A DNA stretch of 64,000 nt from Nordella sp. HKS 07. Lineage in GTDB: Bacteria > Pseudomonadota > Alphaproteobacteria > Rhizobiales > Aestuariivirgaceae. The DNA is taken from NCBI RefSeq assembly GCF_011046735.1, contig NZ_CP049258.1, positions 2,684,001-2,748,000 of the forward strand. The letters run 5' to 3'. The translations under genes and the position numbers were made by a program. Below the pieces are notes generated by a model that had not been told where the DNA came from, made no database searches, and was given only the letters and a program-made list of their open reading frames with translations. Positions 6,255-20,630 of this stretch are shown here, one piece after another (the first letter of the stretch is position 1; each line of letters begins with the position of its first letter).

Positions 6255-7406
6255 CTATCGTAAGGCCAAGCCGGTCGCCGGATCGAAGAAATGCGCGCGA
6301 TCCATATCGACGCCGATATGGATCTCTTCATCGGCTTTGGGAAGATGGCGCGGATCAATGCGCGCCGTGATCCGGCTGGCGGATAACAGACTGCCAGTAT
6401 TTTTCGTGCCCGGATTGTCGAAGAAGGCATAGGCATCGGCGCCGGTCATCTCGGTGATCAGAACCTTGCTCTTCAATCCTCCGGCAATCGGATTAGGATA
6501 GAGAAAGGCCTCCGGTCGAACCCCTAATATGAGATCGCGATCTGTCCATTGCGCAAGGAACGGGCGCGCCGCTTCCTGCGCGGCTGTGAGAGGCAGGACC
6601 ATATCCGTTCCGGCGATGGCGCAGTTGATCGTCTCGCCATTGCGCGCCGGTCGCACCGTGAAGAAGTTCATGGCGGGTGACCCTATGAAGCCCGCGACGA
6701 ACAGGTTCACCGGCTTCTCATAGAGCTCGCGCGGGTTGGCGCATTGCTGGAGATTGCTCTCATTTTCATCGCTGACCGGCCGCAGGACCGCGACGCGGTC
6801 CCCCATGGTCATCGCTTCCACCTGGTCATGCGTCACATAGAGCGTCGTAACGCCAAGCCGCGCATTGAGCAGCTTCAATTCGGCGCGCATCTGGACCCGC
6901 AATTTGGCATCGAGATTGGACAATGGCTCGTCCATCAGGAAGCATTGCGGATCACGCACGATGGCGCGGCCCATGGCGACGCGCTGGCGTTGTCCGCCCG
7001 AAAGCGTGCCCGGCCTCTTGCGGATATAGGGCATGAGATCGAGGATCCGCGCTGCTTCCTCGACCTTCTGTTTGATGACGTCCTTCGGCACTTTCCGCTG
7101 GCCAAGGCCGAAGGCCATGTTCTCGTACACGTCCATATGCGGATAGAGCGCATAATTCTGGAACACCATGGCGATGTCGCGATCGCCGGGGCCGAGATCG
7201 GTGACGTCCTTTCCGCCAATGGCGATTTTCCCCTCGCTCAGCGTCTCGAGCCCCGCGGCGCTGCGCAACAAGGTGGACTTGCCGCAGCCCGAGGGACCGA
7301 CGAGAACCAGGAATTCGCCGTCCCTGACCTCAAGATCGACCCGCGACAGCGCCAGTGTCCCATCCGGAAAACGCTTGCCGACCGAAGTGAAGCTGAGCGA
7401 TGCCAT
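6255..7406 (-). CDS. Carbohydrate ABC transporter ATP-binding protein (MalK/UgpC type)
   Basis: ATPase of 383 residues that energises the importer encoded upstream on the same strand. Walker A GPSGCGKST is at 37-45, the Q-loop VFQNYALYPH at 81-90, signature LSGGQRQRV at 135-143, Walker B CFLMDEP at 155-161 and the switch His at 193 (THDQVEAM). A C-terminal TOBE/OB region follows (GVRPEAFLYP), as in the MalK subfamily. Its start overlaps the stop of the Gfo/Idh/MocA gene by one base, and it is the last gene of a five-gene minus-strand operon (SBP, two permeases, dehydrogenase, ATPase). Confidence 0.95.
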   Translation of the reverse strand: MASLSFTSVGKRFPDGTLALSRVDLEVRDGEFLVLVGPSGCGKSTLLRSAAGLETLSEGKIAIGGKDVTDLGPGDRDIAMVFQNYALYPHMDVYENMAFGLGQRKVPKDVIKQKVEEAARILDLMPYIRKRPGTLSGGQRQRVAMGRAIVRDPQCFLMDEPLSNLDAKLRVQMRAELKLLNARLGVTTLYVTHDQVEAMTMGDRVAVLRPVSDENESNLQQCANPRELYEKPVNLFVAGFIGSPAMNFFTVRPARNGETINCAIAGTDMVLPLTAAQEAARPFLAQWTDRDLILGVRPEAFLYPNPIAGGLKSKVLITEMTGADAYAFFDNPGTKNTGSLLSASRITARIDPRHLPKADEEIHIGVDMDRAHFFDPATGLALR

Positions 7407-18359: not shown

Positions 18360-20630
18360 ATGCTCAAGATCGTCGGCTATCCGGATCGCTATAGTGTGGC
18401 GCCTGGCGAGAATATCGCCTTTAATGTGTCACTCGAGGAAGGCACGCATTTCGACGCCCGTCTGGTTCGTGTCATCCATGGCGACTGCAACCCCGAAGGC
18501 CCAGGGCTCAAATTCCGGCATATCCCATCGGCTGCCGACGGCCGCTATCCCGGCAAGCCGCAGCGCATCGATGCCGGCTCCCATATGGTGGTCGAGAACT
18601 TCCCGGCTTTGGCTTCGGACTCCTTCACCTTCTTCGCGATGATCTGGCCGACCTTGCTGAAGCGGCAGGACCAGACATTGGTGGCGCAATGGGACGCCAG
18701 GCGCTCTAGCGGTTTCCGTATCGAGGTGACTGACGGCGGCCAGCTTGCCGTCCTTCTCGGAGATGGATCCGGCAAGATCGCGAGCCTCAAGAGCGGCAAG
18801 GCCATGCTGGAGCGGCAATGGTATGCGGTGGCGGTATCGATCGAACCAAAATCCGGCGAAGTGGCGCTCGATCAGCGGCCCATCCAACCTTATGCGCAGA
18901 TTGCCGACCGTGCACATAGGAGCGGCAAGCTCGCGGTGTTGCCCAAGGCGCTCGACGCGCCCCTGATGATGGCCGGCTGTCCCGAACCCGACGGGACGAT
19001 TGGTCGACATTTCGACGGCAAGATCGACAGCCCGCTCATCCTGGCGGGCCTCCATGAGGCCGGCCGCCAGGACGCCTATCTGCGGCCGGTCATCGATCCG
19101 TCCCTGCTCGGCGCCATCATCGCGCGCTGGGATTTCGCCAGGGACATCCGCGGCACGCGGACCGTGGATATCGGCCCTTCTGGCCATCACGGCCGCCTCG
19201 TGCATCTGCCGGCGCGCGGCATGAAGGGCTGGAACTGGACCGGCGAGGAGCATAGCTGGCTGCGCAAGCCTGAGCATTACGGCGCCATCCACTTCCACAG
19301 CGACGATATCTATGACGCCGGCTGGGAGACCTCGGTCGAGTTCACCGTGCCGGAAGACATCAAGAGCGGGCCTTACGCGCTGCATGTGCGCTCGGGCGAG
19401 ACCGACCGCGAGGCGACGCGCGAGCAGTATCTCGCTTTCTTCGTGCGCCCGCCGCGTTCGCGCCAAGCGCGCGCCAACCGGCCGAAAATCCTTGTGCTGG
19501 CGTCCACCGCTTCCTATCTCGCTTACGCCAATCACGGCGAGCACATTACCGCGCGCGGCGCCGAGCGGCAAATGGCGCGGCTTCTGACCTTCGGCCATAC
19601 CGATCTTTACATGTATGACCATCCCGAGCTCGGCGGCTCGCTCTACGATTGTCATGCCGACGGATCGGGCGTTTGCTATTCGTCGCGGCTCAGGCCCAAT
19701 CTCAACTATGCGCCGCAATATCATTCCTGGCTCGGCGGCCATGGCTCCGGCCTCTATCAGTATAATGCCGACACACACCTCTATGACTGGCTCGACCATC
19801 ATGGCGTCGACTACGACGTCATCACCGACGAGGACCTGCATGAGGACGGCTATGAGCTTCTGCGCGACTATCGCGTCGTCGTGACCGGCACTCATCCCGA
19901 ATATCATTCGACGCCGATGTGGGACGCCATGAAGGCGTGGATCGATCGCGGCGGCCGGCTCATGTATATGGGGGGCAATGGCTGGTACTGGCGCATCGCC
20001 TTCCACGACGAGTTGCCAGGGGTCATCGAGGTGCGCCGCGCCGAGGACGGCATCCGCACCTGGGTGGCCGAACCCGGCGAATATTATCATTCCTTCACCG
20101 GCGAGTATGGCGGTCTGTGGCGGCGCATCGGCCGCGCCCCCAATGTGATCTGCGGCGTCGGCTTTATCGCCCAGGGCTTCGACGTGTCGTCCTATTATCG
20201 CCGCGCCCCCGATGCCGACAATCCGCGCGCCGCCTTCATCTTCGAGGGCGTCCCGGACGACATCATCGGCAATTTCGGCCTGATCGGCGGTGCGGCCTCC
20301 GGCATCGAGCTCGACTGCATCACCACCAATCTCGGCTCGCCACCCAACATGCTGCGTCTCGCGTCATCGGAGAACCACAATTCGATGATGATGCTCGTGA
20401 ATGAAGAATTCACCATCGTGCCGCCCAATCTCGGCGGCGACCAGAATGAGCGCGTGCGCGCCGATCTCAGCTTCGGCGAGACACCGTCGGGCGGCGCCCT
20501 GTTCGCGACGTCGTCGATCGCCTGGTGTGGGTCGCTCTCGCATAACAACTATGACAACAACGTCTCGAAGATCACCTGGAACGTCCTCAGACGCTTCGCC
20601 AATCCGGAACCATTTCCATCGGCGTTCTGA
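18360..20630 (+). CDS. N,N-dimethylformamidase large-subunit-like amidohydrolase
   Basis: A 756-residue protein matching the large (beta) subunit of dimethylformamidase in length and layout. The N-terminal half is beta-rich with a LamG-like segment (around 60-250). The C-terminal half carries the catalytic region. The characterised enzyme uses a mononuclear iron held by two Tyr and a carboxylate. Here the candidate residues are Tyr386 in STASYLAYANH, Tyr440 in GVCYSSRLRPN, and Glu514 with His512 in GTHPEYHS. The family cleaves C-N bonds of amides such as N,N-dimethylformamide, but many homologues have unknown substrates. Here the gene ends a DeoR-BtpA-FGGY-HAD operon, so an amide-bearing sugar or polyol derivative is a more natural substrate than DMF; that is inference. 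Confidence 0.85.
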   Translation: MLKIVGYPDRYSVAPGENIAFNVSLEEGTHFDARLVRVIHGDCNPEGPGLKFRHIPSAADGRYPGKPQRIDAGSHMVVENFPALASDSFTFFAMIWPTLLKRQDQTLVAQWDARRSSGFRIEVTDGGQLAVLLGDGSGKIASLKSGKAMLERQWYAVAVSIEPKSGEVALDQRPIQPYAQIADRAHRSGKLAVLPKALDAPLMMAGCPEPDGTIGRHFDGKIDSPLILAGLHEAGRQDAYLRPVIDPSLLGAIIARWDFARDIRGTRTVDIGPSGHHGRLVHLPARGMKGWNWTGEEHSWLRKPEHYGAIHFHSDDIYDAGWETSVEFTVPEDIKSGPYALHVRSGETDREATREQYLAFFVRPPRSRQARANRPKILVLASTASYLAYANHGEHITARGAERQMARLLTFGHTDLYMYDHPELGGSLYDCHADGSGVCYSSRLRPNLNYAPQYHSWLGGHGSGLYQYNADTHLYDWLDHHGVDYDVITDEDLHEDGYELLRDYRVVVTGTHPEYHSTPMWDAMKAWIDRGGRLMYMGGNGWYWRIAFHDELPGVIEVRRAEDGIRTWVAEPGEYYHSFTGEYGGLWRRIGRAPNVICGVGFIAQGFDVSSYYRRAPDADNPRAAFIFEGVPDDIIGNFGLIGGAASGIELDCITTNLGSPPNMLRLASSENHNSMMMLVNEEFTIVPPNLGGDQNERVRADLSFGETPSGGALFATSSIAWCGSLSHNNYDNNVSKITWNVLRRFANPEPFPSAF

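Follow-up and report, generated by a model that had tools for sequence, protein, structure and literature searches.

A predicted two-subunit dimethylformamidase-family amidase in a recurrent carbohydrate import and kinase context in Nordella sp. HKS 07

Dimethylformamidases (DMFases) are familiar as enzymes that break down a synthetic solvent, and a natural role of their family is not known to us. The Paracoccus enzyme (PDB 6lvb) consists of two chains, and in P. aminophilus its dmfA1 and beta-subunit genes lie on pAMI2, where the gene for the small chain immediately precedes that for the large chain. Its iron is held by Y399, Y440 and E521; H519 is essential without being iron-bound, Asn547 belongs to the active site, and Phe693 is a gate that constricts the pocket and restricts the enzyme to small amides, as PMC7686228 describes it. 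A relative, the N-acetyl-(R)-beta-phenylalanine acylase (8huy, 8i59, 8i5a), has an N-acetyl amino acid as its named substrate. Here we analyse a DMFase-like gene pair in Nordella sp. HKS 07, carried by a stretch of 64,000 nucleotides (contig NZ_CP049258.1, positions 2,684,001 to 2,748,000) that we call the window. The pair encodes a genuine and well-conserved member of the DMFase family, and the carbohydrate context in which it stands is real and recurs. We put at about 50% the probability that this enzyme is a two-subunit mononuclear-iron amidase that cleaves an imported amide-linked sugar or polyol conjugate and belongs to a clade specialised for carbohydrate-type substrates.

We compared the large chain with proteins of solved structure. 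It matches the Paracoccus DMFase along residues 3-754 with 532 bits (phmmer against the PDB), contains the Pfam domain DMFA2_C at 313 bits (cut-off 27), and matches the acylase 8huy along its whole length with a nearly equal score of 518 bits. An original prediction, made from the letters of the window and their translations, had proposed Tyr386, Tyr440, His512 and Glu514 as iron ligands. In the alignment to 6lvb, the equivalents of Y399, Y440 and E521 are Tyr389, Tyr429 and Glu514, and that of H519 is His512; Glu514 is thus kept as a ligand, the two tyrosines are corrected, and His512 is assigned to catalysis. Tyr386 is invariant in 29/29 rows, yet aligns with DMFase Tyr396 and not with Tyr399, and Tyr440 of the Nordella chain is not equivalent to Tyr440 of DMFase. 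Loss of the iron ligands in an alignment, which the prediction had named as evidence that would tell against it, was not seen: Tyr389, Tyr429, His512 and Glu514 are unchanged in 67 of 67 aligned family rows. The counterpart of DMFase N547, Asn540, is present in all 34 rows of the clade described below and in 25 of 33 other rows. The predicted iron-site residues are therefore intact in this chain, and from them we infer that it would bind iron and act as an amidase in vivo. The Nordella genome holds four DMFA2_C genes in total, three of them outside the window (L111, L112, L113). In L112, one paralog (43% identical) is likewise preceded by a gene for a small subunit.

The small chain has no Pfam match, and as a single query it gave only a marginal match among PDB sequences (E 0.15). 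A profile built from 27 orthologs, however, found the DMFase small subunit 6lvb_B as its sole PDB match (E 2.5e-4). The AlphaFold2 model of the chain (pLDDT 92.6) matches 6lvb_B with a Foldseek probability of 1.00 and with VIA-align Z scores of 10.6-10.7 across 96-97 residues, indicating that the modelled protein has the DMFase small-subunit fold. By tblastn, the small-subunit gene is directly 5' of the large gene in 28/28 loci, the same arrangement as in Paracoccus; the copy in L036 (9587-9979) contains a run of N. Unlike in the DMFase, the small chain found no partner in the acylase entries 8huy, 8i59 and 8i5a. Together, these results uphold the assignment of the pair to a two-subunit DMFase-like protein.

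A tree built from 67 large chains places the Nordella enzyme within a clade of 34 rows (SH-aLRT 100), apart from the DMFase rows L156 and L158. This is a quick tree in which some long branches elsewhere are unsure; exact duplicates (L136, L147, L153, L154, L012) and loci with no qualifying large chain (L113, L138, L143, L144, L145, L024, L025) were left out. Identity to the Nordella chain is 62% or more throughout the clade, whereas the best outsider reaches 49% and the P. aminophilus DMFase (L156) 41%. The position of the Phe693 gate is occupied by Ile686 in Nordella, and Phe is found in 0/34 clade rows and in both DMFase-type rows (L156, L158); the gate loop is aligned with less certainty than the metal site. 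The lost gate fits a substrate larger than that of DMFase. A true hydrolase of dimethylformamide or small formamides for xenobiotic use would agree with family membership and the intact metal-site residues, but the missing gate, the distance in identity and the separate clade speak against it. So do the carbohydrate import and kinase genes around the pair, where no LuxR-type gene adjoins it as one does on pAMI2, and we regard this use as very improbable.

The pair ends a plus-strand run in what the original prediction called a complete sugar and polyol uptake and catabolic island. All open reading frames (ORFs) named there are present:

6255..7406, minus strand: MalK-type ATP-binding cassette (ABC) importer ATPase; ORF named by resemblance
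7406..8467, minus strand: Gfo/Idh/MocA dehydrogenase; Pfam GFO_IDH_MocA 108.7 bits, best PDB match DgpA 7xr9 (102 bits)
8469..9302, minus strand: importer permease, MalG type; ORF named by resemblance, provisional start at the first ATG of the frame
9302..10210, minus strand: importer permease, MalF type; ORF named by resemblance
10268..11704, minus strand: solute-binding protein (SBP) of the SBP_bac_1 family with a Tat signal; Pfam SBP_bac_1 112 bits, best PDB match 5iai (156 bits)
11960..13186, plus strand: ROK-family repressor; Pfam ROK 134 bits
13196..13999, minus strand: short-chain dehydrogenase/reductase (SDR); Pfam adh_short, best PDB match quinuclidinone reductase 3ak4 (341 bits), start codon provisional
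14132..14992, plus strand: DeoR-family regulator, first gene of the plus-strand run; Pfam DeoRC 131 bits and HTH_DeoR 66 bits (scanned from 14087)
15025..15825, plus strand: BtpA/SgcQ-family TIM-barrel protein; Pfam BtpA 247 bits, AlphaFold2 model pLDDT 79.8
15839..17347, plus strand: FGGY carbohydrate kinase; Pfam FGGY_N 192 bits, FGGY_C also matched, best PDB match 3ifr (588 bits)
17344..18015, plus strand: HAD-family hydrolase; Pfam Hydrolase 88.5 bits
18018..18341, plus strand: DMFase-like small subunit, by ortholog profile and fold match to 6lvb_B
18360..20630, plus strand: DMFase-like large subunit, by phmmer match to 6lvb, with Tyr389, Tyr429, Glu514, His512 and Asn540

The families given for the DeoR, BtpA, FGGY, HAD, SDR, ROK, Gfo/Idh/MocA and SBP genes agree with Pfam matches. 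DeoR, BtpA, FGGY, HAD and the small and large subunits follow one another with successive gaps of 32, 13, -4, 2 and 18 bases, and the next gene (20835-21662) is on the opposite strand. The importer-Gfo/Idh block (6255-11704) is on the minus strand with the ROK repressor divergent from it, and the SDR gene is placed between the two halves of the island. BtpA and FGGY are contiguous, with SDR and DeoR as neighbours, which places the run among BtpA-FGGY sugar or polyol operons. A promoter and terminator scan returned terminators no more often than chance (5 against 5.0 expected) and promoter-like sites at 6 against 2.0 expected, and was not used. The host genome is a single contig of 7.18 Mb; of the named organisms, Rhizobiales bacterium Y(2018), Aestuariivirga sp. 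and Taklimakanibacter lacteus are most closely related to it.

Relatives of the importer proteins are found in other importer blocks: MalK at 54-73% identity (L143, L144, L145, L154), the MalG-type permease as 80-82% orthologs in the Kaistia loci L047 and L060, and the MalF-type permease as 77-91% orthologs in L037, L042, L045, L047, L053 and L060. The best solved relatives of the SBP (5iai, 1eu8 and the sorbitol-binding 4rya) are sugar or polyol binders by name. We take 5iai to have been solved with ribitol and 3ifr to be titled a xylulose kinase, and neither assumption is used as evidence. The BtpA model resembles the TIM barrels DHPS, KDPGal aldolase and TrpA (tryptophan synthase alpha), among many matches with high root-mean-square deviation; given that deviation and the model's pLDDT, no reaction was assigned from the fold search. 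As a guess, quinuclidinone reductase 3ak4 may stand naturally in a BtpA-FGGY operon similar to that of Nordella.

We examined the neighbourhood of the pair across the clade using counts within 10 kb, with the Nordella-type SBP (SBP1) and a second SBP_bac_1 protein (SBP2) accepted at 50% identity or more and FGGY at a cut-off of 150 bits; the counts rest on homology-guided ORF calling and on tblastn and hmmsearch searches. An FGGY kinase of either type is near 21 of the 34 clade rows, SBP1 near 13 and SBP2 near 11, and at least one of the three is near 30 of 34. In contrast, no FGGY match above 150 bits is near the outside-clade amidases in 13 rows (1/13 counting a weak 87-bit match in L151), chosen among 33 outside rows for their longer flanks, with L152, L156-L158 and the short-flank L013-L031 left out. 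The chance expectation for such a span is about 4%, based on 13 FGGY places (14 match rows, two in one frame) in the 7.18 Mb of the Nordella genome. FGGY presence requires at least five changes on the clade tree; the amidase-FGGY link reflects more than one event, yet the 21 cases are not independent. The order FGGY-HAD-small-large is kept in the same orientation in Nordella, L035-L040, L042, L045, L051 and L053, with gaps measured for Nordella only. Any MalF/G/K-like gene within 10 kb (26/34) was dropped as evidence, since ABC ATPases of other classes match too and 10/13 outside rows also score.

The island is the union of two modules, importer-Gfo/Idh-ROK and SDR-DeoR-BtpA-FGGY-HAD. Both occur together in Labrys, Taklimakanibacter, L038 and Nordella. 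Kaistia-type loci have the importer-Gfo/Idh-ROK block beside the amidase pair without BtpA, FGGY or HAD, and in L136 Ku and LigD genes come after the pair; Kaistia hirudinis has the importer block at one locus (L047) and BtpA-FGGY-HAD at another (L051). SBP orthologs at 74% identity or more were found in 12 of 397 sampled genomes of the order, 11 of them with a clade amidase within 10 kb. BtpA at that identity or more was found in 21 of 150 relatives searched, with the clade amidase nearby in 6 and without it in 15. Loci were fetched for 13 of these 15 genomes (G048 and G050 were left out); BtpA and FGGY are together in 10 of the 13, and the SBPs there differ from that of Nordella (22-27% identical). 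The co-occurrence that had been proposed as a check recurs on the side of the FGGY and SBP genes; starting from BtpA, it is the minority case.

The BtpA operon of rhizobia and relatives (L097-L110) resembles that of Nordella in its orthologous SDR (62-71%), BtpA (76-84%), FGGY (61-67%) and HAD (47-54%) and in having a MalK-type importer. It differs in that most copies have no clade amidase nearby and on four inspected R. leguminosarum-group plasmids the operon ends in a GGT-family gene. A divergent DMFA2_C protein of about 540 residues, for which no small subunit was detected, lies 0.1-6 kb from BtpA in four genomes of a single genus within the same family (L097, L098, L099, L102); in a fifth genome (G038) the distance is 22 kb. 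It was not counted as an independent recruitment, as it travels with partners of its own, a beta-lactamase-family gene and, in 4/5, an E1-dehydrogenase-type gene. Since the modules occur singly with the amidase and both also occur without it, the amidase is not obligatory: neither module needs the other, and the amidase would serve the SDR-BtpA-FGGY-HAD pathway as an accessory step of entry without being a constant part of it. To call the island a complete single unit was too strong, and of the predicted connection between amidase and sugar uptake, the recurrence with carbohydrate-type importers and FGGY kinases holds while the single fixed pathway does not.

Several of the loci weigh against cleavage of an imported carbohydrate conjugate. 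The congeners L035 and L036, whose amidase is 89% identical, have SDR-DeoR-BtpA-FGGY-HAD-small-large without an adjoining importer, and their genomes (G001, G003) gave no match to the Nordella SBP at E <= 1e-60. The 11 genomes that combine SBP and amidase belong to three genera (g1, g59, g86) and are not independent. The exception, G389 (L138), has the importer-Gfo/Idh-ROK block without a clade amidase. The stretches fetched from G445 and G153 (L144, L145; SBP 53%) likewise have the block and lack an amidase; in G291 (L143, SBP 55%) the contig ends close by, which limits the amidase search. In G137 (L114), an SBP of the Nordella type (54-55%) is near a 40% identical amidase outside the clade. 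Clusters that keep the other genes and lack the amidase, named beforehand as evidence against the prediction, appear in part: the full importer-SDR-DeoR-BtpA-FGGY-HAD set is without a clade amidase in 6 of the 13 fetched BtpA loci (L099, where the divergent short DMFA2_C protein is present instead, and L104, L106, L108, L109, L110), but with the different SBP. Four clade loci (L043, L050, L054, L056) have neither FGGY nor SBP1 or SBP2 at the cut-offs used, their other neighbours being partly identified. Some relatives outside the clade adjoin amino-acid-type importers, so context alone does not define the substrate.

Such loci would also arise by module shuffling, with the amidase working with the importer-Gfo/Idh-ROK block or alone and SDR-DeoR-BtpA-FGGY-HAD being a separate polyol pathway joined on. 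The Kaistia-type loci and L136, the many genomes with the BtpA core alone, and the separate regulators (ROK and DeoR) of the two Nordella modules are consistent with this account. The conserved FGGY-HAD-small-large order and the contrast in FGGY counts between clade and outside rows at the same cut-off argue against it, and we consider it unlikely, though a credible alternative to cleavage of a carbohydrate conjugate.

If the enzyme does cleave a carbohydrate conjugate, the MalK-type importer most likely brings in a sugar or polyol bearing an amide or amide-like N-C=O link, presumably the amidase's own substrate. Hydrolysis of that bond would fall to the alpha/beta enzyme, with Tyr389, Tyr429 and Glu514 binding the Fe and His512 in the catalytic role. 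The carbohydrate half would then be oxidised by the SDR and/or Gfo/Idh enzyme and phosphorylated by the FGGY kinase, and the phosphate may be processed by BtpA, whose TIM barrel resembles phosphate-binding ones, and by the HAD hydrolase. This order of steps is our proposal from gene content. The substrate is probably a carbohydrate conjugate.

Other clade loci offer hints about the nitrogen half. Genes for pyridoxal phosphate-dependent Ser/Thr dehydratases or D-Ser dehydratase-like proteins are found at 7/34 clade loci and M20 peptidase genes also at 7/34, and a copper amine oxidase gene is immediately 3' of the pair in L056 and L057. These neighbours suggest that the nitrogen half differs between loci and that an amine or amino acid is released at those other loci. 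They would also suit a hydrolase of sugar-amino acid or sugar-amine amides whose product is a beta-hydroxy amino acid or an amine. In Nordella such a hydrolase is doubtful: dehydratase, M20 and amine oxidase genes are all missing from its island, and the branches of the clade that have them may use different substrates.

The original prediction favoured an N-acyl or formamide sugar derivative or a sugar-lactam; taken for N-formyl or N-acetyl sugars, it would make the enzyme a deformylase or deacetylase. DMFase prefers formamides (Table 1 of PMC7686228), and the relative 8huy is, by molecule name, an N-acetyl-amino-acid acylase. Downstream of the pair, the Afifellaceae loci L058 and L059 have genes for Gfo/Idh, NanE, a ROK kinase, another FGGY, a SIS protein, NagB and NagA (L058 also for a threonine dehydratase above the NCBIfam cut-off), which would suit such sugars. 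However, NagA would itself deacetylate a sugar phosphate there; NanE, NagB and NagA were not found with the queries used in the other 26 of the 28 loci nor in the Nordella island; and the enzyme lacks the Phe gate by which DMFase is confined to small amides. With nothing in the results specific to N-formyl or N-acetyl sugars, that choice of substrate went beyond the evidence, and we hold it to be rather doubtful. Cleavage of an amide-linked sugar or polyol conjugate of wider definition is the reading we prefer.

The BtpA-FGGY core is also found with unrelated C-N hydrolases. In 4/4 inspected plasmids of the R. leguminosarum group, a GGT-family gene ends the core operon at the place taken by HAD-small-large in Nordella; BtpA is 80-90% identical in 41 plasmid records, few of them inspected. 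On a plasmid of Rhizobium sp. ACO-34A (L168), the importer operon leads into two isochorismatase-type genes, an allophanate hydrolase, a cytosine deaminase, a GGT and an amidohydrolase, and the BtpA/FGGY core is about 4 kb off, on the other side of the SBP. In R. beringeri (L163/L169), two isochorismatase genes and an allophanate-hydrolase-like amidase are found between importer and BtpA, followed by FGGY and then GGT; neither SDR nor DeoR was found in this stretch, and its FGGY gene (L163 7817-9315) reads in two frames. These two clusters share BtpA, FGGY, an SBP-MalFGK importer and C-N hydrolases with Nordella, whereas their hydrolases are of isochorismatase, allophanate-hydrolase, GGT and, in ACO-34A, cytosine deaminase type, none of them DMFase-like. 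In Salipiger profundus (L162), genes of isochorismatase, AtzF, AtzE, AtzG, HpxZ and amidase type flank the core. We take HpxW to be a GGT-family oxamate amidohydrolase, an assumption not used as evidence.

Elsewhere the association is missing. The incomplete annotation of the Shinella, Labrenzia and Thermus copies (BtpA 54%) lists no such hydrolase genes, and the 48% BtpA of Sinorhizobium fredii belongs to another kind of cluster, which includes a PIG-L deacetylase. A GGT gene was found within 20 kb of BtpA in 0/19 genomes searched, and isochorismatase or amidase-signature genes within 20 kb in 0/15 chromosomal genomes without the clade amidase, some of whose contigs end nearby. These results speak against a general link between the BtpA core and amide hydrolases; the pattern applies to a minority of core loci, seen on Rhizobium and Salipiger plasmids. 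One might still imagine the core as an undescribed catabolic route for N-linked carbohydrates (amides or ureides) with interchangeable, unrelated C-N hydrolases: this clade would contribute the iron DMFase-like amidase, and rhizobia and Salipiger would contribute enzymes of GGT, isochorismatase and allophanate-hydrolase type. We offer this joint proposal tentatively and think it unlikely to be right as a whole. N-ribityl or N-glycosyl lactams or ureides are one candidate substrate class, as speculation; a literature search on the riboflavin or ribityl idea gave nothing.

Outside the island, the window contains a FecCD-type permease gene (Pfam FecCD; 21623-22694, minus strand) that is split, with a frame change at about 22462 relative to an intact 356-residue relative in L036; either a pseudogene or an error in sequencing could explain this. 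A second importer at 37744-48265 on the plus strand (genes of SBP, MalF and MalG type and two MalK-like ones, assigned on weak similarity) is followed by PTS enzyme I-like and DhaK (Dak1) genes, which suggests a dihydroxyacetone kinase cluster. A homogentisate 1,2-dioxygenase gene adjoins a fumarylacetoacetate hydrolase-family gene (52765-55124, minus strand), and an IS110/IS116-family transposase gene is at 61052-62083 on the plus strand.

A clade tied to specific SBPs and kinases gives a direct route, through the SBP ligand, to a natural substrate of the DMFase family. The same route bears on BtpA/SgcQ, a widespread family; no paper on its catabolic function, or on that of the SDR-DeoR-BtpA-FGGY-HAD pathway, was found by title or abstract. 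If the route with interchangeable hydrolases were real, the DMFase fold would have a natural role apart from xenobiotics, and BtpA a role in metabolism. Taken together, the conserved enzyme and its recurrent neighbours suggest that this enzyme group serves in nature to cleave amide-linked sugar derivatives.

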